From the IMG/VR virus record IMGVR_UViG_3300043468_001414, positions 1 to 64,000 of that record: DNA of 64,000 nt. One strand, 5' to 3'. This document shows positions 183 through 19,988 of the stretch, one piece after another. Under the pieces are notes generated by a model. It did not search any database. It saw only the letters and a list, made by a program, of their open reading frames with translations, and was not told where the DNA came from. A program made the translations under genes and the position numbers. Source of the stretch: a virus. Within the stretch, counting starts at the first letter, position 1. Each line of letters begins with the position of its first letter.

Positions 183-210
183 ATATATCCGTCGATTTCA
201 AATGTGTGAG

Positions 211-263: not shown

Positions 264-287
264 TGGTTGACCATTTCGCGGAATGGC

Positions 288-2188: not shown

Positions 2189-2211
2189 GGTTGACCCTTC
2201 CCTTTAAGGAT

Positions 2212-2893: not shown

Positions 2894-4618
2894 ATGAACT
2901 TTCTGGATCGCGCGGTTTCGTTTCTCAATCCCCAAGCAGGCGTTCAGCGGGCGTTTGCGCGGGAGAAGCTCAAGGCGTTTGGCTATGATGCGGCGCATCC
3001 TGGCACGGCGCGTGGCGGAAGTGGGGGTAGAAACAAAAATGCCTCGTCCGAGACTTGGCGGATGCAGCGGGATCGGGTGATCTTGATGTGGGATGCGCGG
3101 GATGTGGTGCGGAACTTTGCTCTCCTGCGTGGCATCGTGGCTCGCATCGTGCAGTATGTGGCGGATACCGTGCAGTATGTGTCGCAGACGGGGGATGAGG
3201 AAATCGACTCCCTTTACCAAGACTTCTTCCATCAATGGTGCGAGCGGGCCGACATCACGGGGCGTCACCGGCTCGGCGATCTGGTGAATATGATGGTGTG
3301 GGCGATGATCGTGGATGGCGATCACGGCTGGCATATTGTCTCGGTGGATGAGGATGGCAAGCAAGTGCCTAAAATTCAACCGATCGAAGCGGATCGAATC
3401 GGCGACCCGAACAACCCGATTGCCCCCGGCGAGGAGAGCAATATCGGCGGGATTTTAGTCGATCCTGTGGGCCGCCCGTTGAGCTACAAAATCTTCAAGC
3501 GCGACCGCCGCACGGCGATGTATTCGTTTGACCGCGAGATTCCTGCCGATCAGTTCATTCATATCTTTGACCCTCAAAGAGTGGATCAGTATCGCGGCGT
3601 CACAGCCTTGGCTACGGCGATTGCGCCCGCCCGCGACCTCTACGAGATTTACCAATTTGAAAAAACCGCCGCGAAGTGGCAAGCGGGCTATGCGGGATTC
3701 CTCAAGACGCCCGATCCGACTCGGGGCGATGGCGGCGTGAGTGCGTGGAATGGCACGACCATGGGAAGCAAGTCACAGACGAACATGGGCTTAATGGAAG
3801 TGGCCCCAGGGAAAATCCAAAAGCTCGCGGCAGGCGAAGACATCACTTTTGCGCCCGGCACGAATCGTCCAGGCGGGGCGTTCATGGCGCTGGTGCAGGT
3901 GTTGGTTCGCGAAATTTCGAGCGGGCTGAATATGCCCTACGGCTTCCTTTACGACATGACGGCTTTCAGCGGTCACACAGGGCGCATCGAGATCGCTCAG
4001 GCCATGCGCGGCATCCGCCGCCTGCAAAAGCTCGTCGGCGAGCGGGCGTTGAATCCCGTCCGTGATGCGGTGCTGGGCTATGGGATCGGAATTGGCGAGT
4101 TGCCGCCGCACCCTCAATGGCGCAATGGGCGGTGGGGCTTTGGGCGTTCGCTCACAGGGGACTACGGCCACGATACCACGGCAAATTTGCAGATGCTCCA
4201 AAGCGGGCTCGTCACCGCCTCGGATTTGATTTCCGAGACAGGACAGAGCTTCGAGGAGATAGTGCGCCGCAGCGCCAGCGAGGTGGCCTATATGCAGCGA
4301 GTCGCCACCGAGACAGGTGTGCCGATCGAACTCTTTAATCAACGCATCCCGAATCCGACCCAAGCCCTTGCCGCTATGGCCGAGCCGCCACAGCCGCCGC
4401 CGCCTGGCCTCGTTCCGCAGGGGCTGGATGTGAAGCCGCTCTTGGAGCTTCTGAAAAATGTGGGCGAAGGAATATTGGATCGCGAAAGCGCGATTATCAA
4501 TCTGATGAACCTGTATGGCGTGGAGCGCAATGCGGCGGAGAAGATGATCCCCGATGGGCCGGTGCAGAAGAAGGGATTGACCACGGAGGACACGGAGAAC
4601 ACGGAGGGGAAAAAATGA
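2894..4618 (+). CDS. Portal protein, lambda gpB-like family
   Basis: 574 residues. The middle of the protein (IEADRIGDP, VDPVGRPLSYKIFKRDR, ADQFIHIFDPQRVDQYRG, TAAKWQAGYAGF) matches the lambda-type portal family (Phage_portal_2). Portals form the dodecameric ring at the capsid vertex through which DNA is packed and ejected. GTTGAC (2871-2876) lies 17 nt before ATG 2894, and the previous stop is inside that motif. The C-terminal tail reads TTEDTENTEG and comes from a short 9-bp repeat (4581-4607), unlike a normal portal end. The stop overlaps ATG 4615. No terminase precedes it in this window. Confidence 0.9.
   Translation: MNFLDRAVSFLNPQAGVQRAFAREKLKAFGYDAAHPGTARGGSGGRNKNASSETWRMQRDRVILMWDARDVVRNFALLRGIVARIVQYVADTVQYVSQTGDEEIDSLYQDFFHQWCERADITGRHRLGDLVNMMVWAMIVDGDHGWHIVSVDEDGKQVPKIQPIEADRIGDPNNPIAPGEESNIGGILVDPVGRPLSYKIFKRDRRTAMYSFDREIPADQFIHIFDPQRVDQYRGVTALATAIAPARDLYEIYQFEKTAAKWQAGYAGFLKTPDPTRGDGGVSAWNGTTMGSKSQTNMGLMEVAPGKIQKLAAGEDITFAPGTNRPGGAFMALVQVLVREISSGLNMPYGFLYDMTAFSGHTGRIEIAQAMRGIRRLQKLVGERALNPVRDAVLGYGIGIGELPPHPQWRNGRWGFGRSLTGDYGHDTTANLQMLQSGLVTASDLISETGQSFEEIVRRSASEVAYMQRVATETGVPIELFNQRIPNPTQALAAMAEPPQPPPPGLVPQGLDVKPLLELLKNVGEGILDRESAIINLMNLYGVERNAAEKMIPDGPVQKKGLTTEDTENTEGKK
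4581..4607. repeat. Three 9-bp ACACGGAGR units in the portal 3' end
   Basis: CCACGGAGG, ACACGGAGA and ACACGGAGG run in tandem and are read as TTEDTENTE. The string resembles dispersed intergenic repeats found in several bacterial phyla that give spurious TTEDTENTE peptides. Its presence in frame at the end of a conserved structural gene suggests the portal tail captured a host-type repeat. Confidence 0.55.
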
Positions 4619-5472
4619 AGGAGTTGGCGCGGGGAGATTTTGCGATTCCGGCGCTTGGGAAGTTGCTGAAGGATCGTTCGTTTCTGGAGCAGTTTGCGAC
4701 CGGCAAGCGCGGGCCGAAGTTGGGGGATTTGAGGGCTTTTCGCTGGGGGCGGGTGGGGAAAAACCCAGTTTTTGCGCCGCAGGTAAGTTGGATTGGAACC
4801 GAATCTGTTATTCCCGCGATGAAGCAAAGCGGATTCGATATTCGCGCTGGCGGGAATCGCCAAGAAGCCCGCAATCACATCGCCAAAATGCTCCGCACGG
4901 GGCGTGCGGGCGGGGATGTGTATGAGCATATAGGCCGTTTTTTCTCCGTCAAGCTGCGCTTGCGCGAATTGGCGCGTGGTGACTATGCGATACCGGCGTT
5001 GGGGAAGATGCTCAAGGATCGTTCGTTTTTGGAGCAGTTTCTGACAGGCAAGCGCGGGCCGAAGATGGGGGATTTGTCTGTTGGGAAGATCTACCCAGGG
5101 GGTATGATTTCTGCGAGAAGACCTCCTAAAAAATCAGATTTCCAAATTGCAGGATGGACTAAGGGGCAGATGCTGGGCACTGAGCCGGTGGGGCCGCAGA
5201 ATGCCCGATGGAGAGATGCCCTTATCGAAGAAAGAATTCGCGGGAGAAAAGAAAACTTCAAAAAAAATAGGAGTTCCCTATCTGATGTTGCCAGGAATGT
5301 GCCGTTTCCTCTGGGTCTCACTGCCGAGGAGGCCGCTTGGGCTCAATCTGCTCGAACTGCTGCTCGAAATAATGCTGCCAAGATGTTGCGCAAGGGGCGG
5401 GCTGGCGGCGATGTGTATGAGGACATAGACCGCAAGTTTTTCGCTGTTGACCGCACGCCCTTCGGGGAATGA
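4615..5472 (+). CDS. Internally duplicated LRELA-motif protein
   Basis: 285 residues made of two tandem repeats. ELARGD..IPALGK.LKDRSFLEQF..GKRGPK.GDL occurs at 2-39 and 118-154, and ARN..AKMLR.GRAGGDVYE occurs at 85-104 and 250-269. The second copy is preceded by FSVKLRLREL (110-119), the recurrent peptide of this region; at the very N-terminus the peptide is reduced to MKELA. It is basic, without membrane segments. ATG 4615 overlaps the portal stop. I infer an internal virion protein or a morphogenesis factor because the same peptide marks its neighbours. Function unknown. Confidence 0.65.
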   Translation: MKELARGDFAIPALGKLLKDRSFLEQFATGKRGPKLGDLRAFRWGRVGKNPVFAPQVSWIGTESVIPAMKQSGFDIRAGGNRQEARNHIAKMLRTGRAGGDVYEHIGRFFSVKLRLRELARGDYAIPALGKMLKDRSFLEQFLTGKRGPKMGDLSVGKIYPGGMISARRPPKKSDFQIAGWTKGQMLGTEPVGPQNARWRDALIEERIRGRKENFKKNRSSLSDVARNVPFPLGLTAEEAAWAQSARTAARNNAAKMLRKGRAGGDVYEDIDRKFFAVDRTPFGE

Positions 5473-5732
5473 AGAAAAAGCGTTCTCGCCCCAGTCTGGC
5501 AGGTAAAACTTCTTTGAGAGGCACGGGCTGCCTCTCGGCTAATCAAGCCAAGCAATTCAAGGTGCATCAATCTTCGGAATGGAGGGAGATGAAGTGGGGG
5601 GAGCGTCTCAAGCTCGAAATGGAGCGCGCGGAGGCTTATTTCTGGCGGCAAACAGCAGATCGCCGACAGATTCAAAAAAATTATCTCGCGGCAAAAATTT
5701 GGAAAAGTGGATTTAATTATGGAAAAGCATAA
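5469..5732 (+). CDS. Small basic hypothetical protein (87 aa)
   Basis: ATG 5469 overlaps the previous stop (ATGA). The protein is strongly basic and helical in its second half (EWREMKWGERLKLEMERAEAYF). Its 3' end overlaps the next gene by 14 bp in another frame. Not recognised; the chained start makes it a likely real member of the head operon. Confidence 0.5.
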   Translation: MKKKRSRPSLAGKTSLRGTGCLSANQAKQFKVHQSSEWREMKWGERLKLEMERAEAYFWRQTADRRQIQKNYLAAKIWKSGFNYGKA

Positions 5733-6057
5733 ACAAACCCTGCGCGAGCTGGCGGCTCGCAGTGAACGACTCGTAGAATTTAAAGATCCGCGCCTTGAAC
5801 GCGCGGGCGTTTCGGGATTTAATCAACCCAAGCGCACTCCGAACCATCCTACAAAATCTCATGTAGTCGTGGCGAAGTCCGGCGATCAAGTGAAGACGAT
5901 CCGGTTCGGACAGCAAGGAGTCTCGGGCAGTCCGCGCAAAAAAGGCGAGTCCGATTCCTATCGCAAGCGGCGGGAGTCCTTCAAGGCGCGCCATGCGAAG
6001 AACATCGCCAAGGGTAAGATGAGCGCGGCGTATTGGGCAGACAATGTGAAATGGTGA
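5719..6057 (+). CDS. LRELA-motif protein with basic C-terminal phage domain
   Basis: 112 residues from ATG 5719 (GTG 5707 is possible). Residues 8-21 are LRELAARSERLVEF, a near-consensus copy of the recurrent peptide, placed like an N-terminal targeting signal. The rest is basic. The end, with RKRRESFKARHAKNI and KGKMSAAYWADNVKW, matches an uncharacterised family I recall from phage structural regions. The likely reading is a small virion protein carrying the peptide as a tag. Confidence 0.65.
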   Translation: MEKHKQTLRELAARSERLVEFKDPRLERAGVSGFNQPKRTPNHPTKSHVVVAKSGDQVKTIRFGQQGVSGSPRKKGESDSYRKRRESFKARHAKNIAKGKMSAAYWADNVKW

Positions 6058-6061
6058 TCCT

Positions 6062-9000
6062 ATGAGCGAGTTCATCCGCAAGGCCATCCAGAAGAGTCTC
6101 CTTTTAAAAAAGAAACCGCACTTGGCTCCCAAGGCCACGCCGGTTACTGATCCTGCGAATTGGGAGGATGCGAAGTCCAAATTGCGGGAAATCCTTCGCG
6201 CTAATGGCGGTAAGCCAGGGCCGTGGCTAGATGACAATGGGCAGATGCGGTTGTTGACGCGGCGGTGGGTGGGGATGAAGCGTTTGAAAGAATTTCGATA
6301 TGATGCGCCTACTCCTCAAGAGGAGCGCCGAGGGTTGTTGCGGACGGGGCTTCTGGCTGGGGGCATTGCTGCTGCTGGAGGGCTGGCGGGCTTGGGGTTG
6401 TATAAGTCTGGGTTGTCTTCTTATGCTCGGCGCGCCGATCGTTTGGAAAAGCTTGTAAAGAAAATCCATGGGCAAAGGACGAATCTTGGCCAGAAAGCCA
6501 GGGATGCAGCGGCATCCCGCGGAGCGGCCAAGCAATCGGCTCAAGACGCTTCTATTTTCTCTCAAGGGCTTCGCGAGAAGCGTCAAGCAGCGGCAGCGGC
6601 TGTTGCGGCCAAGGCCGCGCAGGCGAGCGAGGCCGCCAATGTCGCGGCAGCAAAGAAATTTAATAAAACAGCGACTGCTTACTACGATCCCGCAAGTGCC
6701 GCGAATAAGCGGGTGGCTCGTGAGGCGTCTGTCGCCGCAAAGAAAAAGGCGCCAGTTTCCGCGCCCTCAGTTCCTAAAACAGAAATTCCCGAGGAAGTTT
6801 TTTCGGCGGTTCCAGAGGCTCCGATCAAGAAAGCTGCTGCGGCTCCGACTGAAAAATTTTCCAGTTGGGCTCAAGCTAAGGGAGCATTTAATAAAGGGAA
6901 AATCACTAAGGAGCAACTTGACAGCATGAAGTTTTCCTCGGCAGAAGTTCCTAAAGAATTTGATTTTCAGAATGACGAGGGGGGCATTCCCCTCACGGGG
7001 CGCGTGGCTCGAGATCGGTTCGTGAAGAAAATCCGTGATGAGGACTTGGATCGCCGCGATGCGAATATCCTGCGCGCTGGCGGCGCAGGGGCGTTGGCGG
7101 GGTTGATGTTCCGTGGCGGCCTTTCCCGAGGCAAGCGTGCATTGATCGGTGCTGGAGCGGGAGGATTGGGGGTAATTGGCATCCGCGCCCTTACGAATAA
7201 CGATCGAGACATTTACGGCGAGCGCAATCGCGGGAGCAAGCGCGCCGAGTTGATTCCTGCCGTAGGCGGACTCGGTGCGGCGGCATGGCTTGGGATGCGG
7301 CGCTTTAAAGGATTATCATCAAAGCTGCGCGGAACAAAATTTTTCGAGAAGCGGGAGCGCCGTGAGAAACGGGAGTTGAATCCCTATGTGGGGGCGGCTC
7401 TCTCGGGTGGCGTAAGCGGGGCGAGCCTCGGCGCGCTGTCATGGCTCAAGCGTGGCACCTCCGTGGCTTCGGCTGGAGCGACTGCTGCGAAGTTGGGTGC
7501 ACTCAGCGCCGGTATCGTCGGCGGCGGGGCCTTGATCGGTAGCCGCATCGTGGGTGATCCTCGCAAGGAAGAGGGAGCGCCGTTTACGAAGCGCGCGGCC
7601 TTGGGCGGGGCTATAAGCGGAGCCTTGGTAGGTGGCGCGGGTGGGCTTTTGCTTCGCAATACGAAGTTTATGAAGGATGCCGCCAAAACTTGGCGTCCGG
7701 CAAAGTGGATGACAGATGCTCCGGCTCTCGGGGCTGGCGCTCTTGGGGCTCTGGGCGGCGCGGTGATCGGTGGGGCGCAGGGGGCCGACGAGGGGCAGCA
7801 GGTTGATTCGATCCGCAACATCCGAAAGGACATAAAGCAAAAGAATTTTTCTCTTCGTGAGTTTCGCGCGTTGCCAGCGGTTGCCGTGAAGCAAGTTTGG
7901 AAGACTGATCCTGCGCTGCGGGCGGATTTTGCAAAACGGGTTGTCGCTAAAGTGCGGGCGGCTGTGGCTGCGAATAACAAGCAATACGGGGTAAAGGAGT
8001 TCCAAGTCTCTCCGCTCAATGTGGAGTCGATGGCCAAGACGAAAGAGCGTCGCGCCAGCGAGCGGGCTAATTTTTTGAAAGGCATTGGCGTAGCGGCAGC
8101 TGTGGGACTTGCAGGAGTTGGCGGGTATAGGGTGGGCCGTGTGATCAGTAAGGTGGATATCAATGCTGCCAAACGGGCGGCAGAAGCTGCTTCTGAGGAA
8201 GCGGGATGGCAAAAGCGTAGTGCTGAAAGATGGCGTAAAAGTTGGCAAGATGAGGCGTCGAGTGCTTCTCGTGCGCGGCAGGAGGCGTCGAGTGCTTCTC
8301 GTGCGCGGCAGGAGGCCCGTGCGAGTTCGTGGAGAGAAGAGAATCGCAAATGGGAAGAAGATTTTCGGAATAAGTGGGGTAATCCCCAAGGTTCCAGTGG
8401 TGCGAGTTCATCTGGACATGACAGTGATTACGCCAAGCGAAGCGCGGACGCTGCCAAGAAGTGGCGTCAAGAGCAGTCCAGATCCTCGGCTTCCTCCTCC
8501 AGCTATCGTGCTGAAAGCGGAACAGGATCGAAGGATTACACCCCCCCGCCTAGATCCAGGGCGAAGGGAACCGGCGAAGATCGCAACCCTCATGTAGGCA
8601 CTGCTAAGGAGGATGCTTGGGAGAAATGGCGCGCGATGGATCGCATGGCTAAGGAATCTAAAAATGAAGGCGAGCGCGAGACTGCTGCTCGCATGAGAGA
8701 TATGTGGAAAAAGAAACATAATTTGGCAAGAAAGCTGCGGGGGTTGAAGTTGTTTGGACGCGATGATCAGCCTCGTTATCGAGAAAGCAAGGTGTGGGCT
8801 GATCCGGTCATGGGTTGGATCCGAGGGGATGACTTGGTGGATAAGGATGGCAATAAATGGAGTCCTACCTCGCCGCAGCTTGTGAATGCGATGCACAATA
8901 AAGCGCGCGGCATTCGCGTGAATGTGCAGCGCGGGGCGGGGTTGGCGGGCGATACTTCGGCTGTATTGCAGGGTAAGGAGCGCGAGCGCGATGCCAGTGG

Positions 9001-9733
9001 CCGTGTTAAAAAACGCGAGTGGGAGAAGGCATGGTTTCGCAACGCGCTGACGACGGCTGGGCTGACTGCGACAGGGCTGGCTGGCGCGGCAGCGTGGCGC
9101 TATGGCCGCATGAATCCTGGCACGGGCTTTGGAAAATTTGTGGCAAATACGGAGCGAGGTGTCCGCAAGACCAAGGATGATATCAAGTCGGGCTTGGGTC
9201 GCATTATGGGTGCCGCTGATGAGGTTACTGGGCCTGCTAAATTTATAAGAAAATTGTTGTCTGCCAAGTTGAAGTTGCGCGAATTTGATCTCTTTGCCAG
9301 CGCGGCAGGGTGGGATACACGCGACCCACGCGGGAGGTCGGTTCGCGTGTATGCTCCAGGCAGTCGCCCGCGTAATAGGCGTGAGAAATACTGGCATGAA
9401 AAGACTGAGAACCAACGCAAGCTTATGATCGCAGCTGGCGTCGGAGCTGCGGCTATCGGCGGGCTTGGCGGCGTGGCGGCTTATCGGCTCGCCAAGGGGA
9501 AATCGCTTGTGCCGAGTTTTATGCTCAAGAAGCCGCAGCCACAGGTTCAGGCTCCTCTGCCTGCTGCGGCTCGTTGGGAAAAAAATTCCAAAGGCAAATT
9601 CGTTCCAAAACCGAGAGGGGTAGAGGGGAAGGTTAATCCTCATTTCAAGGGAGATGCTCCATTGACTCCAGAAGAAATCGCTCGTCAGCAAAGAAAATGG
9701 AGAGACATGGCAAATCCTAATAACGCCGCCTAA
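6062..9733 (+). CDS. Giant glycine-zipper protein, probable ejection polyprotein (1223 aa)
   Basis: 1223 residues with many glycine/alanine-rich hydrophobic stretches suited to membrane insertion: about 91-113, 341-375, 399-413, 445-500, 513-535, 555-580, 675-690, near 1000 and near 1120. They alternate with basic, charged linkers. Variants of the recurrent peptide occur at KRLKEF (73-78), SLREF (about 597) and SAKLKLREF (1067-1075), each not far from a hydrophobic block. A low-complexity Ser/Ala/Arg/Gln segment contains a perfect 30-bp duplication. No enzymatic motif is seen. I infer an internal capsid protein, perhaps cleaved into several membrane-active ejection proteins; lying between portal and scaffold genes supports a head role. 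Confidence 0.6.
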   Translation: MSEFIRKAIQKSLLLKKKPHLAPKATPVTDPANWEDAKSKLREILRANGGKPGPWLDDNGQMRLLTRRWVGMKRLKEFRYDAPTPQEERRGLLRTGLLAGGIAAAGGLAGLGLYKSGLSSYARRADRLEKLVKKIHGQRTNLGQKARDAAASRGAAKQSAQDASIFSQGLREKRQAAAAAVAAKAAQASEAANVAAAKKFNKTATAYYDPASAANKRVAREASVAAKKKAPVSAPSVPKTEIPEEVFSAVPEAPIKKAAAAPTEKFSSWAQAKGAFNKGKITKEQLDSMKFSSAEVPKEFDFQNDEGGIPLTGRVARDRFVKKIRDEDLDRRDANILRAGGAGALAGLMFRGGLSRGKRALIGAGAGGLGVIGIRALTNNDRDIYGERNRGSKRAELIPAVGGLGAAAWLGMRRFKGLSSKLRGTKFFEKRERREKRELNPYVGAALSGGVSGASLGALSWLKRGTSVASAGATAAKLGALSAGIVGGGALIGSRIVGDPRKEEGAPFTKRAALGGAISGALVGGAGGLLLRNTKFMKDAAKTWRPAKWMTDAPALGAGALGALGGAVIGGAQGADEGQQVDSIRNIRKDIKQKNFSLREFRALPAVAVKQVWKTDPALRADFAKRVVAKVRAAVAANNKQYGVKEFQVSPLNVESMAKTKERRASERANFLKGIGVAAAVGLAGVGGYRVGRVISKVDINAAKRAAEAASEEAGWQKRSAERWRKSWQDEASSASRARQEASSASRARQEARASSWREENRKWEEDFRNKWGNPQGSSGASSSGHDSDYAKRSADAAKKWRQEQSRSSASSSSYRAESGTGSKDYTPPPRSRAKGTGEDRNPHVGTAKEDAWEKWRAMDRMAKESKNEGERETAARMRDMWKKKHNLARKLRGLKLFGRDDQPRYRESKVWADPVMGWIRGDDLVDKDGNKWSPTSPQLVNAMHNKARGIRVNVQRGAGLAGDTSAVLQGKERERDASGRVKKREWEKAWFRNALTTAGLTATGLAGAAAWRYGRMNPGTGFGKFVANTERGVRKTKDDIKSGLGRIMGAADEVTGPAKFIRKLLSAKLKLREFDLFASAAGWDTRDPRGRSVRVYAPGSRPRNRREKYWHEKTENQRKLMIAAGVGAAAIGGLGGVAAYRLAKGKSLVPSFMLKKPQPQVQAPLPAAARWEKNSKGKFVPKPRGVEGKVNPHFKGDAPLTPEEIARQQRKWRDMANPNNAA
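8252..8311 (+). repeat. Perfect 30-bp tandem duplication inside the giant gene
   Basis: 8252-8281 and 8282-8311 are identical and encode EASSASRARQ twice in frame. This looks like a recent slippage or duplication event in a disordered linker. Confidence 0.9.
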
Positions 9734-9739
9734 AAATTT

Positions 9740-12322
9740 ATGAACGATCCAAGACCTCGTAATAACCAAGGCCAATTTGCCTCTCAAAGCATCGATGGCA
9801 TTGATGCCAATACGACTTCCACGGCTTATAATCCCCAAGTCATCGAGCAACGCAAACTCTCGCTGATCGAAAAAATCCGACGGATGCGCGGCGTTCGCAA
9901 TGGCGTGGAGGAGGCGGGGCCTCGACAGCAGCAACTTTCCGCGAAGCTTCGGCTACGCGAGTTGGCGCAGCGGCAGTCTCAAGAAGATCCCGCTTTAGGC
10001 CGCGCCGGAAGTCTGCTTCTTGCGGGTGGGGTTGGAGCCGTGGGGAATCTGGCTGCGGTGACGGTAGCGAAGGAAGTAATGGACGCAAAAAAGCAGCAGG
10101 GGTTGGATTTTTTTGGGCAGCCTCGCGGCTCGGAGATGAAGCCGATGATGGCATGGGGCAGGACGAAAGAAGAAGCCAATGAGAAACTTCGCAAGGCTAC
10201 AGAAGAGGTGAATGGGCGTAACCGCAAGGTGCAGCGCGAGTATCTGCGCTCCAATCCTGATGCCCGCCGTAGTGAGGTGCTTGATAGATTTGCTCGCAGG
10301 AAAGGATATGATATCGCTGTTGGTGATCCCGGCATCGCTCCGAAGGGGGCTATTCCTGGTAAGTCGAGAGGTATATTCCAAAGAGGGCATGCTGACCCTG
10401 ATTTTATAAGGGCGCATGAGGCGGGGCATGTGGCTCAAAATCTCGGCGGCAAAAATCTTCCCTTTAACAAAAGTATCCGGCAGGCCTTTATGTTTGCGCC
10501 TTTGGGGGCGACTTCCGCTCTTGTGAACAAGGACAAGTCGAATGACAAGGTTGCGACGGGAATCGCTGCTGCGGGAACTCTGGCTGCGTTGCCGACATTG
10601 CATAACGAGGTGGATGCTTCTGTGCGTGGCTACAAGATCATGCGCAAGCTCGGCTCAACGCGCCTGCGTGCAGCGGGTGCATTTGTAGGGTTGCCCACCT
10701 ATGCCGCTATCGCCGCCATGCCAGCATTGGGCTGGGGTGCGCGAAAGCTCCGGCAGGCTCGCTCGGAGGAAAAAGATGGCAAGCAGCTCTCTGCGAAGCT
10801 TCGCCTGCGGGAGTTGGCGCGCGTGGCGGCTCAACCCTATCCCGAAGAGGAGCGAAAGGGTGGCATCGGCAAGATCGGTGCATTGGGGCTGGGCCTTGGG
10901 CTGGGTATCGGTGGCGCGATAGGTGGCGCACGGTATCTGCGGCCTATTCTCAAGCGTGGGGTCGGTCGTGCATCGGATAGCTTGGCAAGCGTTGCTGCAT
11001 CGGCAGGGAATGCGATCCCCAAGATGACCAGCGAGGTCGAAAAAACGGCAAGGTCGGCTCAGGCTACAGCCAAGGCAGCACAGACTGCTGTGATTCAAGC
11101 TTCACGAAACATTGACGACGCCACGCTGGTTCCCCGGACGATGGGAAAAATTGCCAGATCGGAGGTTTTCCCGAGGGCTTGGAATATCATGAACCCGCGT
11201 GCGCGTTGGAAGGAAATCAAGAGCGGATTTGATGCTGGGGTGGAAGAGTCTCGCTTGCGTGGTAAATACATAGATCGCGTGCGGCGGCGTGCTGCGGAGC
11301 GAGGGGTGTCGGGATTAGATCAAAAAATGCTAAGGCAGGCGGCAATAGAAAATGTGCCTACTGGCACAGTGCCGATCTTCCAAGCCTGGCGGCCCAGTTG
11401 GGCGCGCGTCACGCCAGAGCGCGTGAAGTTGGCTGGGCCAAAGGCTGGGGCGAAACTTTACTCTGCCAAGCTGCGATTGCGTGAACTCTCTTTTGCGAGT
11501 GATGCGCTGAGGGAATTCGCCGAAGAGAAACGCCCGCTGACCACTAAACAAAAGCTGGGGATAGCGGCTGGGCTGGGCACGGCTGCTGTGGGGGCGACGC
11601 TCATGCCAGCGGCGGGCAAGATGTTTCGTATCGCCACGCGCGATATGGCGCACGATACGCTGACGGGCTGGGCGAAGAAGCGCGGCTTGCGTTCATTTAT
11701 CAAGCCGCCCAAAAGCGATCCGAATCGGGATGGGCGGTTTGTTGCCGATTACATCGACGGCGCGCAATCAATCTTGAACAAGGGAGTGCAGGGTAAGATC
11801 GCGGGTAAGATTCTCCAGCACGCCAAGGCGAACCCGAAGGGTAAGGTGGCTAAAGTAGTGGGTGGCGAATTGGGTGATTATGGAGTGAGCCACTATGCGA
11901 GATTCCGCTCAGGGCCTCGGGAAGCCATGAAGCATTGGGACAGTGAAGTGGGTGATCTCAAAAACCACATCGGCAAGCAACAAGGTATTTTGGATGCAAA
12001 TAACAATTTTGTGCCAGGAGCAAACCCGGCAAAAGTTAAAAAAACCCAAGCGCGGCGTGATGAGATGGCCGCTGGGCGCAAAGCTGTGGATGACGAGATC
12101 AATGAACAGCTTTGGCATCATGGCAAAAGCGAGTCCGAGGCGTTGCGGCATGTGGCGGAAAACACAAAAAATCCTGCTGCCTTGCAATATTTTAAGAACT
12201 TAGCGCACCATAACAGGGGGGCTGCTGCGAAGTATGCCAAGATCTCTTTGGTGGCACCTGGGATGGTGGTTGGTGGTGGAGCCACTGCGGGGCTTTCAAT
12301 GCGGAGAAAGGAAAATCAATGA
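9740..12322 (+). CDS. Modular LRELA protein with HExxH metallopeptidase domain (860 aa)
   Basis: 860 residues carrying three near-identical peptides: LSAKLRLREL at 66-75, LSAKLRLREL at 350-359 and YSAKLRLREL at 574-583. They split the protein into modules of about 220-285 residues. Module 1 contains HEAGH (226-230) and NEVDAS (E290), the arrangement of zinc-dependent gluzincin peptidases (HExxH plus a distal Glu, reminiscent of YugP-like enzymes), embedded between glycine-rich hydrophobic segments. Module 2 opens with a glycine zipper (about 375-398). Module 3 opens with another one (about 605-625). I infer a polyprotein of internal virion proteins, one of which may be a peptidase acting on the cell envelope. 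Confidence 0.6.
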   Translation: MNDPRPRNNQGQFASQSIDGIDANTTSTAYNPQVIEQRKLSLIEKIRRMRGVRNGVEEAGPRQQQLSAKLRLRELAQRQSQEDPALGRAGSLLLAGGVGAVGNLAAVTVAKEVMDAKKQQGLDFFGQPRGSEMKPMMAWGRTKEEANEKLRKATEEVNGRNRKVQREYLRSNPDARRSEVLDRFARRKGYDIAVGDPGIAPKGAIPGKSRGIFQRGHADPDFIRAHEAGHVAQNLGGKNLPFNKSIRQAFMFAPLGATSALVNKDKSNDKVATGIAAAGTLAALPTLHNEVDASVRGYKIMRKLGSTRLRAAGAFVGLPTYAAIAAMPALGWGARKLRQARSEEKDGKQLSAKLRLRELARVAAQPYPEEERKGGIGKIGALGLGLGLGIGGAIGGARYLRPILKRGVGRASDSLASVAASAGNAIPKMTSEVEKTARSAQATAKAAQTAVIQASRNIDDATLVPRTMGKIARSEVFPRAWNIMNPRARWKEIKSGFDAGVEESRLRGKYIDRVRRRAAERGVSGLDQKMLRQAAIENVPTGTVPIFQAWRPSWARVTPERVKLAGPKAGAKLYSAKLRLRELSFASDALREFAEEKRPLTTKQKLGIAAGLGTAAVGATLMPAAGKMFRIATRDMAHDTLTGWAKKRGLRSFIKPPKSDPNRDGRFVADYIDGAQSILNKGVQGKIAGKILQHAKANPKGKVAKVVGGELGDYGVSHYARFRSGPREAMKHWDSEVGDLKNHIGKQQGILDANNNFVPGANPAKVKKTQARRDEMAAGRKAVDDEINEQLWHHGKSESEALRHVAENTKNPAALQYFKNLAHHNRGAAAKYAKISLVAPGMVVGGGATAGLSMRRKENQ

Positions 12323-13455
12323 ACTACTTAATGAGGCTTCATGAATTGGCTTCGCGGAGCCAACGCCAAGTAGATCGGCAAGAAGTGCTGAGTAATGCCA
12401 GCGGAGTCGCTGGAGCGGGATTGGTCGGCGCTGGTGGTGTGGCGGCGTATCGGGCGATCAATCCGACAGTAGGCATCACCTACGGCAAGACAAATGCCTA
12501 TCGCGGGCACCTCAGTCATGCCGAGGATGTGAAGAAAATTTTGGATGGAGCGGGTGTTAAGTCGTCCATGCATAATGCAAATACTCGTGGTTTTTTTGGT
12601 TCTCAGCGGCACGCTGTAATGGTGAATACCGGCTTCGGGCCAAATGTTGTGGGGGCATCACGGGTTAAATTCAAGCCGGATTACACGGCTGTGACGGATT
12701 CGGTATTGCCTGTTATGCCCGACGCCATGAGCAAGCCGATCAAATCCCGCAAGAGGACTGCTGGCGTTTATGGCGGCGGCGGTGGGGTGGATGTAGGTGC
12801 CAAGGTTCCGCACCTCGCCAAGGCGCATGAAGATTTTGACGCGATCCATCTCTACGCAGGGCCGAAATCCAAGAACATTAAGCCGGGGTATGCAGGCGGT
12901 GGCTATGAGGAGGCGCAGGCGGCGGTGGCAGAGTTGGCAAAAACGAACCCTGCGGCGGCTGCGAAATTTAAAGTTCATAGTTCGATGAGTCGCAAAGCGA
13001 TCAAAAATGCGGTCCGCGCTCATTCGGTAAATATCGGAAACGCGGGGGCGGGCACGATGCACGAAGTCGCGGCAAGTCCTAAGCCCGGTGTAATCTGGCA
13101 GGCGAGTCCTTACGCATCGAATCATTTCAAGGTGAATGAGGCGTTGGCGCACCGGTATGGGATGCGTGTGGCGCGAGGGGCAAATGATATTGCCCGGAAC
13201 GAGGATGCGGTGGCTCACTTGAGGCATATCGCTCGTGACAGCACGCGCGCGGTAGAGCGTCAGAAGGAATCAGCGGAGCAGATGATTCGAGATGGGGCTA
13301 AGAGCCGATCTGCCTTTGTCGATGATGTGAAGTCGGCTCTCAATAAGAGTCGTCGGCGGAATGTGATGGCGGCGGCAGGACTTGGGGGCGTCGGCCTTCT
13401 TCTTGGGGCGAACGCTATACGCTCTCGAAATTCCAAAACAAAAAATAAACCATGA
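12319..13455 (+). CDS. LRELA-type protein with terminal membrane segments (378 aa)
   Basis: ATG 12319 overlaps the previous stop. Residues 5-15 (MRLHELASRSQ) are a divergent copy of the recurrent peptide at the extreme N-terminus. A glycine-rich hydrophobic segment follows (about 28-46) and a second lies near the C-terminus (GLGGVGLLLGANAI). The soluble middle, with Gly-rich YGGGGGVDVG and AIHLYAGPKSKN, is not recognised. The stop overlaps ATG 13452. Probably another internal or ejection protein. Confidence 0.5.
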   Translation: MNYLMRLHELASRSQRQVDRQEVLSNASGVAGAGLVGAGGVAAYRAINPTVGITYGKTNAYRGHLSHAEDVKKILDGAGVKSSMHNANTRGFFGSQRHAVMVNTGFGPNVVGASRVKFKPDYTAVTDSVLPVMPDAMSKPIKSRKRTAGVYGGGGGVDVGAKVPHLAKAHEDFDAIHLYAGPKSKNIKPGYAGGGYEEAQAAVAELAKTNPAAAAKFKVHSSMSRKAIKNAVRAHSVNIGNAGAGTMHEVAASPKPGVIWQASPYASNHFKVNEALAHRYGMRVARGANDIARNEDAVAHLRHIARDSTRAVERQKESAEQMIRDGAKSRSAFVDDVKSALNKSRRRNVMAAAGLGGVGLLLGANAIRSRNSKTKNKP

Positions 13456-14450: not shown

Positions 14451-14454
14451 AAAT

Positions 14455-14934: not shown

Positions 14935-14936
14935 AT

Positions 14937-15176
14937 ATGTCGCGGCGCGGCAAGCCTTCCGATCGTAGTGAGGTTGTCGTGCGGTTGCAGGACAAGTTTG
15001 CAGAGCATTTTGATGCTGGTGTCGGCATTTTCTCGTGGGAAGAGGGCGGCGAGACGCATTTCGTGACGCTTAAATTTGGCAATTCTTTCACGGTAGATGC
15101 CATGATCGATCAGTTGCGGGGCTGTATCGAGGGCGGCGGCGAAGAGGAAAACGACGAGGAAGACGAGGAAGAGTAG
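14937..15176 (+). CDS. Small protein with acidic tail (79 aa)
   Basis: ATG 14937 follows a clear Shine-Dalgarno (GGAGG at 14925-14929), one of the few conventional sites in the window. The first 65 residues are mixed alpha/beta and the last 15 are almost all Glu/Asp. Such tails occur in head-assembly chaperones and decoration factors. Not recognised otherwise. Confidence 0.5.
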   Translation: MSRRGKPSDRSEVVVRLQDKFAEHFDAGVGIFSWEEGGETHFVTLKFGNSFTVDAMIDQLRGCIEGGGEEENDEEDEEE

Positions 15177-15206
15177 TCTTTTCGTTGACGCGCCCCGGAA
15201 AGGGGC

Positions 15207-16517
15207 ATGGCAGACCTCAAAGAATTTTTCGCTCCCTTCGTTACCCAGAAGGTCGATCCAGCCAATGGGATTATCTACGGCGTCTCGGTGATCACCTCGG
15301 GCATCAAAGCCCGCGGGCATGATCTCGAAGTCGATAGCACCACCCTATCTCAAATTAAAGAATGTGCCGAAAAGCTCGGCACGGTTCCCGTGAAGTGGAA
15401 TCACCGCACCGGCGCGGATGCCGTGGCGGGGTATCTGGAAAATTTCCGCATCGAGGGCGGCAAACTCCTCGGCGATTGGCACCTTCTCAAAAGCCACTCG
15501 CAATTCGGCCAAGCGATCGAAATGGCCGAGCGCATGCCCCGCAATGTGGGCCTTTCCGCCGCCTTCATGGGCGAGGACGAAATGAGCGGCGGCGTCAAAA
15601 AGGCGCGCTGCTCAGAACTCATTTCCGTGGATCTCGTGGCGCAACCCGCCGCGAATCCTAACGGCCTCTTCGAGGCGAAGATGCCAGAGCAGTCCACGGA
15701 ACTCGCCTCGCAAGTTGACACAATAACCACAAACCGTATGGATCAAAATACCAACACAAACACCAACGCAGTGGCGGATGAGCCCTCCTTGAAGGATGTT
15801 CTCGCGGCCCTGAATCAACTCTCTGAGCAGGTCACTGCCCAGCAAGAGACTATCGCCGCCCTGCAAGGTGCGGAAAACAATGAGGCCGAGGATATCTCGA
15901 TCGAGGAGATCATGGATCTCACCGACGAAGACATCTTTGCGCTTCTCCAAGCCGGTGAAATTTCCGAAGAGGACGCCGCTGGGATCAAAGCCTACCAAGC
16001 CGAAGTCGTTGCCGCCAACGAGGCCGAGCAATCTGAAGGCCAAGGCGAAGACGAGCCAGCCGAAGGCGAACTCGCTGGCATTGGCGCCGGTTCGGATAGC
16101 TCCTCCACAGGATCTTCCGCCGAACTCTCCGCGCTTCAAAAACAAGTCAAGGAACTCAGCGCCCGTTTCGAGCGCGAAGACGCCGCGACTGAAAATGCCG
16201 AGATCGAACACTATTTCGCAACCATCGAGGGCAACCTCACCACCCTCGCCCAGGAGAAAGCTGCGCTCACCGAGTTCAGCGAGAAACTCCAAGCCGAGAA
16301 CGAGGCTCTCCGTCACGCCGTGAAAACTGGCACCCGCCCGCTGGCATTCAGCGCCGAGGGCCGCGCCACCACTGGCAGCCATGGCGAACTCCATGAGTTC
16401 GATAGCCGCGTGAAGAACCACACCGAATCGGGCAAGACCCGCGCACAAGCCGTGATGCTCGCCCACAAAGAAAATCCGGAAGCCCACCAAGATTGGATCC
16501 GGCAGCAAAGCAAATAA
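15207..16517 (+). CDS. Prohead protease with C-terminal scaffold domain
   Basis: 436 residues. The N-terminal 160 follow the prohead serine protease fold: KWNH (H66), GLSAAF (S117), then ELISVDLVAQPAANPNGLF, the usual ending of the protease domain. Residues 178-436 are acidic, Gln/Glu-rich and coiled-coil prone, as expected for scaffolding. Such proteins template the procapsid and then digest the scaffold. GTTGAC (15184-15189) lies 17 nt before ATG 15207. VKELSARFERE (about 314-324) in the scaffold part is similar to the LRELAARSER peptide of the presumed cargo proteins. Confidence 0.8.
   Translation: MADLKEFFAPFVTQKVDPANGIIYGVSVITSGIKARGHDLEVDSTTLSQIKECAEKLGTVPVKWNHRTGADAVAGYLENFRIEGGKLLGDWHLLKSHSQFGQAIEMAERMPRNVGLSAAFMGEDEMSGGVKKARCSELISVDLVAQPAANPNGLFEAKMPEQSTELASQVDTITTNRMDQNTNTNTNAVADEPSLKDVLAALNQLSEQVTAQQETIAALQGAENNEAEDISIEEIMDLTDEDIFALLQAGEISEEDAAGIKAYQAEVVAANEAEQSEGQGEDEPAEGELAGIGAGSDSSSTGSSAELSALQKQVKELSARFEREDAATENAEIEHYFATIEGNLTTLAQEKAALTEFSEKLQAENEALRHAVKTGTRPLAFSAEGRATTGSHGELHEFDSRVKNHTESGKTRAQAVMLAHKENPEAHQDWIRQQSK
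15715..15740 (+). promoter_or_regulatory. Internal GTTGAC motif and in-frame ATG
   Basis: TTGAC at 15715-15719 is followed after 18 nt by ATG 15738, which is in frame with the protease gene (codon 178). The same spacing precedes many true gene starts here, so this probably marks a second initiation site inside the gene. Confidence 0.65.
15738..16517 (+). CDS. Nested scaffold protein (259 aa) within the protease gene
   Basis: In-frame initiation at ATG 15738 would give the C-terminal 259 residues alone: an Asn/Thr-rich start, then an acidic coiled-coil scaffold. The boundary falls just after the protease domain ends. This copies the lambda C/Nu3 arrangement, in which the scaffold is made from an internal start. 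Support is positional (the GTTGAC motif and the domain boundary); expression is not shown. Confidence 0.6.
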   Translation: MDQNTNTNTNAVADEPSLKDVLAALNQLSEQVTAQQETIAALQGAENNEAEDISIEEIMDLTDEDIFALLQAGEISEEDAAGIKAYQAEVVAANEAEQSEGQGEDEPAEGELAGIGAGSDSSSTGSSAELSALQKQVKELSARFEREDAATENAEIEHYFATIEGNLTTLAQEKAALTEFSEKLQAENEALRHAVKTGTRPLAFSAEGRATTGSHGELHEFDSRVKNHTESGKTRAQAVMLAHKENPEAHQDWIRQQSK

Positions 16518-16536
16518 TTACCAAGGATAATAATAT

Positions 16537-16905
16537 ATGAACTTCAATACTGTTGTTTCACTTCCAGCGGCTGCGGATTTTAGCGCCGTCGAAAACGCCT
16601 CCGTCAAATTCACATCTGCGGGCGTCGAGCTTGCGGGAGCTTCTGATCGAGTTATCGGAACCGTCATTCGCGCCGCCGCCCAGCCTTTTGTGGTTGGCAA
16701 GGCCTGCGACGTCTTCCTTCGCGGCAATGGTTTCCATTATGTCCGCGTTGGCAATGCCACAGCGATCGCGATCGGCGACGAGCTGGAGCAAGCCGCCGGC
16801 GGCTTGTATGTCAAGAAAACCACCGGCGCCGCTGCTGCCCTCGCCATCGAGGCGGCTCCCGCCAACAGCAATGGAGGCGGCCAAATCCGCGCCATCCTGC
16901 TCTAA
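16537..16905 (+). CDS. Head decoration protein, DUF2190-like
   Basis: 122 residues, Ala/Gly-rich and beta-rich, lying between the scaffold and major capsid genes, where decoration proteins usually lie. The layout (an N-terminal strand, ASDRVIGTV, KACDVFLRGNGFHYV, IGDELEQA, a C-terminal IRAILL) resembles the DUF2190 capsid decoration family. ATG 16537 follows AAGGA. Likely a trimeric capsid-stabilising protein. Confidence 0.65.
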   Translation: MNFNTVVSLPAAADFSAVENASVKFTSAGVELAGASDRVIGTVIRAAAQPFVVGKACDVFLRGNGFHYVRVGNATAIAIGDELEQAAGGLYVKKTTGAAAALAIEAAPANSNGGGQIRAILL

Positions 16906-16935
16906 AACAAATCACAATTAAATAGATAAACCAAT

Positions 16936-17895
16936 ATGGCTTACAATACCACAGATTCCGTTCCACGGCAGGACATCAGCACTCTCCTGATGGAGGCCGT
17001 GCACCAAGAAAAACACTACATCGCTCCGATGCTTCTGCCGATCTACGGCAGCGAGCGCGAAGTGGGTCGCTATCCGAAATTCACCATCGGCAAGGGCGAA
17101 CTCCTCAAGCGCGAGAGCCAAAAGCGCGGCGCTACCGGCACCTACAACGAGTCCGATGAGGTCTTCGAGTGGGACAACTATCAGACCGTCGAATACGGCC
17201 ACGAGAAGCGCATCGATGATGTCGTCCGCAAGCAAATGCGCGACTTCTTCGACGCCGAAATGGTGACAGCGAAATTCTGCTCAAACAAATTGATGCTGGA
17301 TTACGAGATCGAGGCCGCTAACGCGCTCTTGAATCCGACCACCTTCACAGCTTCGGCTGCGAGCACCGCCTACACCGAGGCAAACCTCGACACGATGGAT
17401 GTGCCTGCGGACATCAACGCCACCATCGAGCAACTCACCCTCTTGGGCGAGGAGCCCAACACGATGGTTTTGAGCCTTCCTCTCTTCAACCGCCTCAAGC
17501 GCTCGAAGAAACTCCAGACCTACCTGTATGGTCACTTGAACACCACCCAAGGCGGCTCCAATATCACCTCGGAGATTATTGCGGCTTCCTTCGGTATCGC
17601 CAATGTGATCGTGGCTAAGAAGAGCTACGACAGCGGCATCAAAGGCAAGACCAGCGTTGGCCCCGTATGGAGCAACAACTACATCTGGATCGGCGATGTC
17701 CAAGGCGGCGACTTCATGAACGGCGGCGCAGGCCGCACGATCATCTGGGATGCCGACTCCGAAGGCGGTCTCTTCACCTCGGATCAATACCGCGACGAAG
17801 CTCGCCGCGGCGACAAGATCCGTGTTCGCTCGAACCGCACCATCAAGGTCATCAACCAAAATTCGGCCCGTCTCATCACGACGAACTGGGCCTAA
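16936..17895 (+). CDS. Major capsid protein
   Basis: 319 residues. The order protease/scaffold, decoration, this gene, terminator is diagnostic for the major capsid protein. The sequence has an N-terminal arm, a central helix with FDAEMVTAKF and a C-terminal segment with FTSDQYRDEARRGDKIRVRS, as in encapsulin/gpE-type HK97-fold shells. No long delta domain is present, in keeping with a separate scaffold. It has no GTTGAC and no strong Shine-Dalgarno; the leader AAATAGATAAACCAAT is AT-rich. Assembles the icosahedral shell. Confidence 0.8.
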   Translation: MAYNTTDSVPRQDISTLLMEAVHQEKHYIAPMLLPIYGSEREVGRYPKFTIGKGELLKRESQKRGATGTYNESDEVFEWDNYQTVEYGHEKRIDDVVRKQMRDFFDAEMVTAKFCSNKLMLDYEIEAANALLNPTTFTASAASTAYTEANLDTMDVPADINATIEQLTLLGEEPNTMVLSLPLFNRLKRSKKLQTYLYGHLNTTQGGSNITSEIIAASFGIANVIVAKKSYDSGIKGKTSVGPVWSNNYIWIGDVQGGDFMNGGAGRTIIWDADSEGGLFTSDQYRDEARRGDKIRVRSNRTIKVINQNSARLITTNWA

Positions 17896-17896
17896 T

Positions 17897-17950
17897 CGGG
17901 AGAGGGGGGCCGTTTAGCCGGGCTGCGGCGGCTCCCCTCCCAACCTTTTT
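17897..17950 (+). terminator. Probable terminator after the capsid gene
   Basis: A GC-rich imperfect stem (GGGAGAGGGGGGCC against GGCTCCCCTCCC) is followed by AACCTTTTT. It separates the capsid gene from the tRNA gene. Confidence 0.55.
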
Positions 17951-17953
17951 GAA

Positions 17954-18027
17954 TGCAGGATAGAGAAACGGTATCTCACGAGGCCCATAACCTTGGGTTC
18001 CGGGTTCAACTCCCGGTCCTGCTACCA
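17954..18027 (+). tRNA. tRNA-Met (CAT), initiator-like, with C33
   Basis: A full cloverleaf of 74 nt with encoded CCA. The acceptor is TGCAGGA/TCCTGCT, with a T1-T72 mismatch and six pairs. The D-stem is GAGA/TCTC with a 7-nt loop holding GG. The anticodon stem is CGAGG/CCTTG, loop CCCATAA, anticodon CAT at 17986-17988. The T-arm is CCGGG-TTCAACT-CCCGG and the discriminator is A. Bacterial initiator hallmarks present: unpaired 1-72, an A11-U24 pair and two of the three G-C pairs of the anticodon stem. Position 33 is C, not the near-universal U; C33 is known from vertebrate initiator tRNA. Elongator Met or lysidine-Ile cannot be ruled out. Confidence 0.85.
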
Positions 18028-18082
18028 TTTACCACCACCACGAACCGCTGGCAGACCGGTCCCAAAGTCTGCCAATTTTTTT

Positions 18083-18871
18083 ATGACTGTTAAACAATCT
18101 GACGCAGATCAGCTGCAGAAGCAAAAAAATGCAAAAATGGCTATGCTTCGTTACCAAGCCAGCAAGTCGATCGATGCCCAAGGAGACAAGATGACGATGC
18201 CTGGTCTGGCTTTGGGGGCTCTGACTGGTGCGGCGATCGGATCTAGAAAGGGTGGAGTGTTGCCGGTGGCTGCTGTGGGTGGCGCGTTGGGAATGCTTGG
18301 GCTCCGCATGGCTGGTAAGGCAGATGAAAGAAATCGACTGAACAACTTGGCTAAAGATATGAAAAAAACAAACCTACAAGCACTTAAACCTGCGCTTCGC
18401 GAACTCGCGGCTCGCTCGGAACAACTCAAGGAATTCGCCATGGTGCGCGACGCCAGTGGCCGTTATGTCGAAGTCGAAGAAGATGGATTTCCCGTCGGCG
18501 CGGCTGTAAAGGCAGGTGCGGGCGCGGCTGCTCTCGGCGGCGCAGGCTACGGAGCTTACAGAGGGCATCAAGCAATCATGGGGAAATTCGGCACTTTCGG
18601 TCCTATGGAGGCGGGTAAAAACCGCTATGTCGAGGCTTACAAAGGTGCTGGAGCCGCTGGGTTCGGGGCCGTTAAAGCTGGTGGCCAAGCTGGCTGGGAC
18701 TCTTTAAAAAATGCTGGACAAGGAGCGATGAACTCCTCTCAGACTGCCGTTCAGAGCGGAGTGAACTCCGCTAAGACGGCTGCTCAATCGGGATTGAATA
18801 CCGCTAAAAAATCCGGATTTGGAAGAAGGCTGCGCGCCGGATTGCTCGGGGCTGCTCGCTGGATGAAATAA
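18083..18871 (+). CDS. LRELA-motif glycine-zipper protein (262 aa)
   Basis: The start is placed at ATG 18083, because the upstream in-frame TTG at 17993 lies inside the tRNA. Two glycine-zipper hydrophobic regions (about 38-78 and 137-160) flank a consensus peptide LRELAARSEQLKEFA (105-119). The C-terminal part has a run of AGQ/SAKTAAQSG-like 11-residue-type amphipathic repeats. It is the same type as the giant proteins upstream but a single module, so it may be their stand-alone paralogue and an internal, membrane-active virion protein. Confidence 0.6.
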   Translation: MTVKQSDADQLQKQKNAKMAMLRYQASKSIDAQGDKMTMPGLALGALTGAAIGSRKGGVLPVAAVGGALGMLGLRMAGKADERNRLNNLAKDMKKTNLQALKPALRELAARSEQLKEFAMVRDASGRYVEVEEDGFPVGAAVKAGAGAAALGGAGYGAYRGHQAIMGKFGTFGPMEAGKNRYVEAYKGAGAAGFGAVKAGGQAGWDSLKNAGQGAMNSSQTAVQSGVNSAKTAAQSGLNTAKKSGFGRRLRAGLLGAARWMK

Positions 18872-18888
18872 TAAGTCTGCCTCTCTTT

Positions 18889-19416
18889 ATGATTAACCAC
18901 AAGCTCGCTTTGGGAATGGGGCGCCTCGGTGACGGCGGCCCTATGGATAAGCTCATGAAGGCGTGGGCTAATTCAAAAATTCGTCCTTCTGCCTCTACAT
19001 TGAAAGCTGCCCAAAAGCTGCCTAATAGTTATCCTCAAAAGAAAGCGGCTTTGAGAGGAGTTATCTCGCGCGACGAGATTGCAGATCTTTTGCGGAACGC
19101 GAGGTCTGAGAAGGATTTCTCAGCCAACCTCAAACTCCAACTCCGTGAACTCGCCGCCCGCTCCGAGCGGGTGGTGGAATTTGCGGGCGGGTATGTGAAT
19201 ACAAGCCAGGGTGTGTTGAACGAATCCGGCGCGGGAGGGCATTTCAATCGAAATGCCGGAGCTTACTACGGCACCCTTTTGTTTCCCGGTGTTGGCACAG
19301 CGATCGGGGCGCTCATCGATCTGAACCGCCGGAAAAAGAATCGCATCTACACCGAAGAGGAAAACCCGATTTCCGATAGAACAGCAGCAAGCTTGGCGCG
19401 GGGATTTTCAAAATGA
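18889..19416 (+). CDS. LRELA-motif protein (175 aa)
   Basis: Residues 77-99 carry the longest copy of the recurrent peptide: FSANLKLQ, then LRELAARSERVVEFA. A short hydrophobic stretch (TLLFPGVGTAIGALI, 129-143) follows. The N-terminus is basic. Its stop overlaps ATG 19413, so it is coupled to another protein with the same peptide. Not recognised otherwise; probably part of the internal-protein set. Confidence 0.55.
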   Translation: MINHKLALGMGRLGDGGPMDKLMKAWANSKIRPSASTLKAAQKLPNSYPQKKAALRGVISRDEIADLLRNARSEKDFSANLKLQLRELAARSERVVEFAGGYVNTSQGVLNESGAGGHFNRNAGAYYGTLLFPGVGTAIGALIDLNRRKKNRIYTEEENPISDRTAASLARGFSK

Positions 19417-19988
19417 GTTCTTTGCGTGAATTTTCCTCGGCAATCATGCAGAAGCATCTCCTTCGGGCCAAGCTTCGCCAATTGGTGAATAAGGCGCGGG
19501 TCTATGGACGCACTCCGGAGAATGTGGGAGAGATTAAAAAGGGCTGGGGCGCATACGATGCCATGAAAGCGCGAGCTTTCGCCGCTCAAGTCGCCGCTCT
19601 TCGTGAACTCGCCGCCCGCTCCGCGCGGGTGGTGGAGCTGGCTCGCGGGGATTATGTAATCAAGCACATGAAGTTGAATCCAGGCGCGTGGCGTGGAGCG
19701 ACCGACACAAAAAGAGCGGCTCAAGGGAAATTTAGCCAGCGGATGACAGAAGCTATTCAAGACGTTTTAGACGACAAGAGAAAGTTACCATTCTCCGTAA
19801 GTAACAATCGGGGCTCGGTTGCTGCTGATTATGCTAAACAGGCCAGAGATGAGATGGCTATGTCAAGAAAGGAGATTGCTTGGTGGCTAAGAAGTCAAAG
19901 AGAGGCCGCTCAAGGTCGATCTTTCCGGCCATTCAGCGATCATCTTTATCACGCGCGAGAGCGCGGCTCGAGGTCGCAAATGTTTTAA
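19413..19988 (+). CDS. LRELA-motif protein (191 aa)
   Basis: ATG 19413 overlaps the previous stop. It has an N-terminal MSSLREFSSA, and the main peptide LRELAARSARVVELARGDYV at 63-82. This copy joins the LRELAARS motif to LARGDY, the motif that opens the duplicated 285-residue protein at 4615, showing that the two motif types belong to one module family. The remainder is basic and unrecognised. Confidence 0.55.
   Translation: MSSLREFSSAIMQKHLLRAKLRQLVNKARVYGRTPENVGEIKKGWGAYDAMKARAFAAQVAALRELAARSARVVELARGDYVIKHMKLNPGAWRGATDTKRAAQGKFSQRMTEAIQDVLDDKRKLPFSVSNNRGSVAADYAKQARDEMAMSRKEIAWWLRSQREAAQGRSFRPFSDHLYHARERGSRSQMF

Follow-up and report, generated by a model that had tools for sequence, protein, structure and literature searches.

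A recurrent peptide in head-region proteins of an uncultured phage as a candidate clade-specific propeptide for prohead targeting and cleavage

The window analysed here, i.e. the whole stretch of 64,000 nucleotides, comprises the first 64 kb of the uncultured virus record IMGVR_UViG_3300043468_001414, which totals 96,663 bases. From the portal to the head-tail genes, eight otherwise unrelated proteins of this phage contain the peptide SAKLRLRELAARSERVVEFA or variants of it (Table 1), with the core L of L-x-E at the window positions 4960, 5740, 9275, 9953, 10805, 11477, 12337, 18395, 19141 and 19599. The original prediction had named copies in the genes 4615, 5719, 6062, 9740 (three times), 12319, 18083, 18889 and 19413, and every one of them was found in frame, 18083 being an internal ATG within an open reading frame (ORF) opening at 17993. 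The copies had also been described as often N-terminal or at module borders. While many of them indeed border modules, only two of the ten main copies (5719 and 12319) lie within the first 12 residues and the rest are internal.

In a held-out test, each protein in turn was removed from the hidden Markov model (HMM) of the motif and scored against 1000 shuffles. All eight proteins were recovered, six of them at 12-28 bits with none of the 1000 shuffles as high, and more weakly 6062 (3.5 bits, p 0.004) and 12319 (2.2 bits, p 0.006). The genes behind the shuffles are greedy long ORFs with no curated annotation. Over the 122 ORFs of the complete 96.7-kb record, a set from which the 5719 gene was left out through an overlapping antisense ORF, the motif HMM found no additional place above 2 bits. 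Shuffled genomes reached a maximum of 9.2 bits compared to at least 22.9 bits for the true copies, which are also the training copies. Outside the block, a HEYGH-containing protein at 77.7-78.5 kb of the genome (L002:17740-18528; comparison loci and contigs are given as L plus a number) begins with MKMMEFRARLLRLIEFALKLSQAKSLLREI, possibly a degenerate extra copy of the peptide; the candidate stretch MEFRARLLRLIEFALKLS was rejected as not significant (p 0.065).

The same codon was used in 125 of 364 shared-residue comparisons, with 112.8 expected under a random codon draw, which agrees with the earlier statement that the codons differ. Since the codon agreement barely exceeds chance, most copies are old and maintained at the protein level. 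A recent duplication is clear only for the pair 18889/19413 (11 of 14 codons identical), and the motif is hence not confined to one such event; with codon agreement near random, a spread as a DNA repeat or via a single recent duplication was ruled out. Regarding the distribution, 13 of 15 stretches with the nine-residue exact core among 2.9 million viral contigs fall in this phage clade, as counted with an exact search pattern that misses other codons. A wide occurrence of the exact core across viruses was ruled out as well, the matches outside the clade (L201 and L208) resembling chance single matches. That the core hardly occurs beyond the clade also speaks against a DNA repeat that has spread. 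In relatives, the peptide lies in the same block with varying copy number (L102 has four copies in a 974-residue ORF and three in a 678-residue ORF), and in the distant relatives L011, L013 and L015 the frame is kept with changed residues (RLTELS, RLKELS, FDRLIELS).

Table 1. Positions of the peptide copies, candidate sites and head genes in the window
Feature	Position	Strand	Basis
Portal protein, lambda type	2894..4618	+	PF05136, 5.6e-50
Truncated copy MKELARGDFAIP, N-terminus of 285-residue ORF 4615	4615..4650	+	translation
Copy SVKLRLRELAR in ORF 4615	4945..4977	+	held-out HMM 12.4 bits, 0/1000 shuffles
N-terminal leader MEKHKQTLRELAARSERLVEF of 5719	5719..5781	+	held-out HMM 20.4 bits; missing from nearly all homologues of the following protein
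Candidate cargo protein KDPRLERAGVSGF..., phrog_7595 (weak likeness: minor head/DNA pilot family)	5782..6057	+	hmmscan 1.1e-41 to phrog_7595, 3e-5 to phrog_220
Copy LLSAKLKLREF in 1223-residue protein 6062	9254..9286	+	held-out p 0.004
Copy 1 (SAKLRLRELA) in 860-residue protein 9740, border F3/F8	9938..9967	+	
Copy 2 in 860-residue protein 9740, border F8/F9	10790..10819	+	
Copy 3 SAKLRLRELSFASDALREFA in 860-residue protein 9740, border F9/F10	11462..11521	+	
N-terminal copy MNYLMRLHELASRSQR of 378-residue protein	12319..12366	+	held-out p 0.006
Fused prohead protease (~residues 1-160; His66 and Ser117 likely catalytic pair) and coiled-coil scaffold	15207..16517	+	
L-K-E-F (MADLKEF), candidate self-cleavage site at protease N-terminus	15207..15227	+	(L/M)KEF in most aligned homologues
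Scaffold motif SALQKQVKELSARFERE	16128..16178	+	V-x-E-L-S-A-x-F-E invariant, 9 homologues
Scaffold site L-T-E-F	16266..16277	+	
Scaffold site L-H-E-F	16389..16400	+	
Major capsid protein	16936..17895	+	phrog_1005, 1.7e-31
Copy LKPALRELAARSEQLKEFA in ORF 17993 (18083)	18383..18439	+	held-out 17.4 bits
Copy SANLKLQLRELAARSERVVEFA in protein 18889	19120..19185	+	held-out 27.7 bits
MSSLREF, L-x-E-F site at N-terminus of 19413	19413..19433	+	
Copy AALRELAARSARVVELA in protein 19413	19593..19643	+	held-out 17.3 bits

Within the peptide, two tetrads stand out. The first site reads L-[RKH]-E-L in 24 of 24 long copies. At the second site, 20 of these 24 copies carry I, L or V at P3, 20 carry E at P1 and 19 carry F or L at P1', while P2 is occupied by seven different residues. 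The nine motif ORFs comprise 26 [LIVM]-x-E-[LF] tetrads compared to 4.6 expected from shuffles (five sites in ORF 6062, with 1.1 expected), and the remaining genome comprises 24 compared to 19.8. When K, R, Q, N, S or T was counted at the position of E, the motif ORFs showed no excess. The peptide ends in aliphatic-x-Glu, as does the T4-type capsid targeting sequence (CTS). With Glu at P1, any residue at P2 and a fixed residue class at P3, the tetrads resemble known sites of prohead proteases, e.g. A-X-E in SPN3US (PMC10052503). After the E-L/F site, a second recurrent peptide, ELARGDY/EFARGDYAIPAL, is found in several proteins (window 4615-5472 and 19413-19988; L102:13694-15727).

The peptide could also be a docking helix only, which would hold internal proteins on the scaffold or the portal and remain uncut. 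Its amphipathic-helical appearance, its resemblance to the invariant V-x-E-L-S-A-x-F-E of the scaffold and the lack of the second tetrad in some copies are in line with this explanation. However, a fixed P3 and P1 with a varying P2 is the pattern of a protease site, and extra short tetrads without the long helix (e.g. GGVKEF) are in excess, too. Since the placement of the last Glu in the 5719 leader and the occurrence of modules in fused or split form, both described below, speak against it as well, docking alone is regarded as unlikely.

A candidate for the protease is encoded in the same cluster by 15207. Residues 1-160 gave a tblastn match to the Andromedavirus head maturation protease with an expect value (E) of 2e-4, the latter belonging to phrog_976. 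The hhalign comparison of 15207 with the Andromedavirus proteases (phrog_976) yielded a probability of 94%, an E of 1.8e-8 and a score of 45 with His66 and Ser117 aligned, compared to a best score of 10 among 30 column-shuffled profiles. Sequence searches of 15207 in Pfam, PHROGs and PDB gave no usable direct match, and the relation came through Andromedavirus. These alignments show that 15207 is a relative of head maturation proteases already known and that it conserves their His and Ser. In addition to the sites given in Table 1, its scaffold part has a VKEL tetrad. The likeness of the scaffold stretch VKELSARFERE to the peptide, as proposed originally, was confirmed in so far as the stretch is present and invariant in nine homologues, while its HMM score is weak on its own (p 0.037). 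T4 gp21 likewise carries a site near its N-terminus (PMC9026906).

The clearest case of an added leader is the one in front of the phrog_7595 protein. In unrelated phages, this widespread protein nearly always starts with M(A)KDPRLERAG, i.e. M(A)KDPRLERAGVSGYNKPKRTP or near. In the window, the 21-residue leader of 5719 ends in LVE/F directly before KDPRLERAG, and its last Glu is located one residue ahead of the native N-terminus KDPRL. Of the 136 distinct phrog_7595 N-termini, two (the window and L083/L119) were recognised as having a leader by a strict pattern, and inspection by eye added those of L006, which belongs to the same clade, and L124. The phrog_7595 protein of L083 starts with the T4-type leader MIKFRDFINE followed by EKDSRLKQAG, and that of L124 with MLTFKEYLKE followed by TEAQLKAAG. 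The L124 contig also encodes a phrog_138 major head protein (1.9e-158) and a phrog_207 head maturation protease (5e-77), which we read from their sequences as the gp23 and gp21 types of T4. Both leaders look like the T4 CTS. Leaders that do not resemble each other have thus been added to one cargo family at an equivalent point, and all of them finish with aliphatic-x-Glu no more than about one residue away from the native start. With a single cargo family and different leaders across phages, this comparison provides a simple handle. In L083 (57,814 bases), the T4-type leader is shared by five proteins, a cytidylyltransferase-like protein among them, the four further leaders being MQSFKSFISE, MENFESFITE, MITFKSYLKE and MIGSFKQYLVE.

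Alternatively, the peptide might serve ejected proteins after infection, as an amphipathic helix that interacts with membranes or DNA. The peptide is arginine-rich, and glycine-rich hydrophobic helices are predicted for four of the eight motif proteins. Nonetheless, neither the fixed Glu with its flanking hydrophobic residues nor the same tetrads in the protease-scaffold and the clean phrog_7595 leader would be explained by such a role, which we consider highly improbable.

When the long proteins from nine phages were divided at the sites, 22 recurring module families were obtained, designated F plus a number. In alignments of the uncut proteins, 40% of the internal ends lay at most 25 residues from a site compared to 17% expected. 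At the borders formed by the peptide, modules are swapped, reordered, fused or split in the relatives, a point missed in the original prediction. The order is F3-F8-F9-F10 in the window, F3-F8-F6-F9-F10 in L102 and F3-F9-F8 in L103. F10, fused in the window, is a gene of its own in L103 with the N-terminal leader MIDRLKELAAFTGRLIEF, F16/F17/F5 are distributed over two genes in the window and lie in one in L102, and in L011 the F3 module stops as a separate gene directly past the motif. F11 (about 127 residues) is part of the 6062-type protein in L099, whereas L100, L101 and L104 have it in their 9740-type protein; its copies in both proteins are 82% identical and end 2-5 residues from the sites on either side. 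In L098, the phrog_7595 leader is followed by a newly inserted module, and a half-copy, identical in DNA over 30 bases, precedes the original protein. Pfam and PHROGs searches with the long motif proteins of the window and its relatives gave nothing usable except phrog_7595. Module F8 (window 9740-12322) is a peptidase-like candidate cargo with no Pfam match. It shows a zincin-like HEAGH followed downstream by NEVDAS, a pattern retained in L103 and L013 (HEVGH, HEIGH).

The coincidence of the copies with module borders and the half-copy flanking the inserted module of L098 would also be compatible with a linker spread by recombination, its short repeats serving as crossover points with no packaging role. 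Against this, most copies differ from each other at synonymous sites almost to saturation, so that selection on the protein must hold the peptide, and free-standing genes (5719, 12319, L099, L103) retain it N-terminally. This explanation is regarded as very unlikely.

We assume, with a probability of about 0.7, that the peptide is a clade-specific propeptide of head-packed proteins, which targets them to the prohead and is a cleavage substrate of the protease 15207. The amphipathic first half SAKLRLRELAARSER would bind the growing scaffold core, whereby the attached protein would enter the prohead and become located inside the virion. The [LIV]-x-E-[FL] tetrads (LRE/L and, ten residues on, VVE/F, LKE/F or ITE/F) would then be cut after Glu by 15207, removing the tag from a cargo that might later be ejected; LRELAARSERLVEF is the leader form expected to be a substrate. 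In the case of internal copies, the long gene product would be a polyprotein of modules, which the protease cuts apart, and the protease-scaffold, whose N-terminus and coiled coil contain these tetrads as well, could be processed likewise. If the protease cuts at the tag, it would make no difference whether a module is fused or free-standing, and the observed fission and fusion of modules would be explained most simply in this way. The capsid-targeting and/or processing signal for internal proteins proposed in the original prediction gains indirect support from the added leader, the site excess confined to the motif proteins and the related protease in the cluster. Going further, there is about an even chance that the head cargo of this siphophage-like lineage is made as polyproteins in which a targeting-and-cleavage peptide bounds every one of the exchangeable cassettes. 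Cargo would then be gained by insertion of modules between tags, with a single protease for maturing the head and for cutting the cargo apart. The proposed propeptide predicts, from sequence alone, which proteins are packed into the head and where they are cut in an uncultured lineage, and a short portable packaging tag could be a tool to load proteins into phage shells.

Several points weigh against the propeptide. Most copies are internal, unlike the T4 leaders, and lie inside polyprotein-like genes, and the second site is missing in copies 1 and 2 of 9740, in 4615 and in 6062. Since the nine ORFs were picked for holding the motif, the count with the main long copies masked (12 tetrads left compared to 3.5 expected) is the fairer one; moreover, [LIVM]xD[LF] and [LIVM]xA[LF] are mildly raised, too, and the L-x-E-L excess may partly come from amphipathic helices. 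The modules were defined through cutting at the sites, and only the alignment-end test is independent of this. For the capsid protein 16936, no relative was found among 50,697 phage records. Structure prediction is no more than suggestive of a gp21-like fold: in the whole-protein model of 15207, the predicted local distance difference test (pLDDT) of the protease domain was below 50, with a long helix at 304-374, and for a second protease model (pLDDT 48) T4 gp21 had the top Foldseek probability among the solved structures listed (0.72), at a non-significant E of 0.13.

Concerning the genomic surroundings, the phage has a GpA-type terminase, and the long ORF at 23425 is probably the tape measure, judged from its length and place. 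Related loci numbered 12 via the capsid protein and 20 via the protease profile, many of them on the same contigs. Two metagenome bins, one of Spartobacteria and one of Planctomycetia, also contain a protease homologue, a weak hint at the hosts of the lineage. Just upstream of the portal (window 814-2875), an RNase T-type exonuclease, an RNA ligase-like protein and an NrdR-like zinc ribbon are encoded. The record starts with a short ORF (window 10-270) that is a direct repeat of TYSRLIPFQLTRGFAV, and on the minus strand of L003:10964-12103 two tandem paralogous genes of 182 and 187 residues are nearly identical in their N-terminal 70 residues.

In T4, the protease gp21 cuts after L/I-x-E. The CTS is the only conserved part of the T-even internal proteins (PMC3012670; PMC9026906); its N-terminal part targets and its last residues form the processing site, while LIE-9 is cited as a site in agreement with the gp21 logo (PMC9026906). 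As in the T4 internal proteins (IPI-IPIII, Alt), a short conserved peptide with apparent targeting and processing parts is found here on diverse, presumably head-internal proteins, and the phrog_7595 cargo family carries T4-type leaders in L083 and L124. The differences are another sequence, mostly internal copies, repetition within one protein, and a phage with a lambda-type portal, a GpA terminase and a capsid of another PHROG (phrog_1005). The T4-type leader pattern (MxxFxxF[IL]xE) had no convincing match in the window and was recurrent only in L083, with one match in L124. By analogy, the peptide may work like the T4 CTS, but both its sequence and its position set it outside that family.

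Ejection and head proteins of SPN3US and phiKZ lose propeptides that are cut after Glu with a fixed P3 (A-X-E in SPN3US; PMC10052503, PMC5694885). The likeness comprises the cut after Glu, the fixed P3 class and several sites per propeptide, whereas P3 is aliphatic here and a recurrent tag of about 20 residues contrasts with most SPN3US propeptides of more than 100 residues. In P1, an N-terminal signal takes the internal protein DarB into the capsid; no common consensus was found for the Dar proteins (PMC9024508), in contrast to the shared consensus here. Polyvalent proteins, known from phages and conjugative elements, are large, multidomain and virion-delivered, often with metallopeptidase domains (PMC5512222), which is matched by the HEAGH motif of the 9740 protein; here, however, the long motif proteins gave no usably significant match to a Pfam or PHROGs domain, and a recurrent candidate prohead-protease site lies at the borders. 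Altogether, the comparison suggests that a cleavable tag for capsid targeting, as known from T4, may also exist in an unrelated-looking form that could be used for cargo made of swappable modules.

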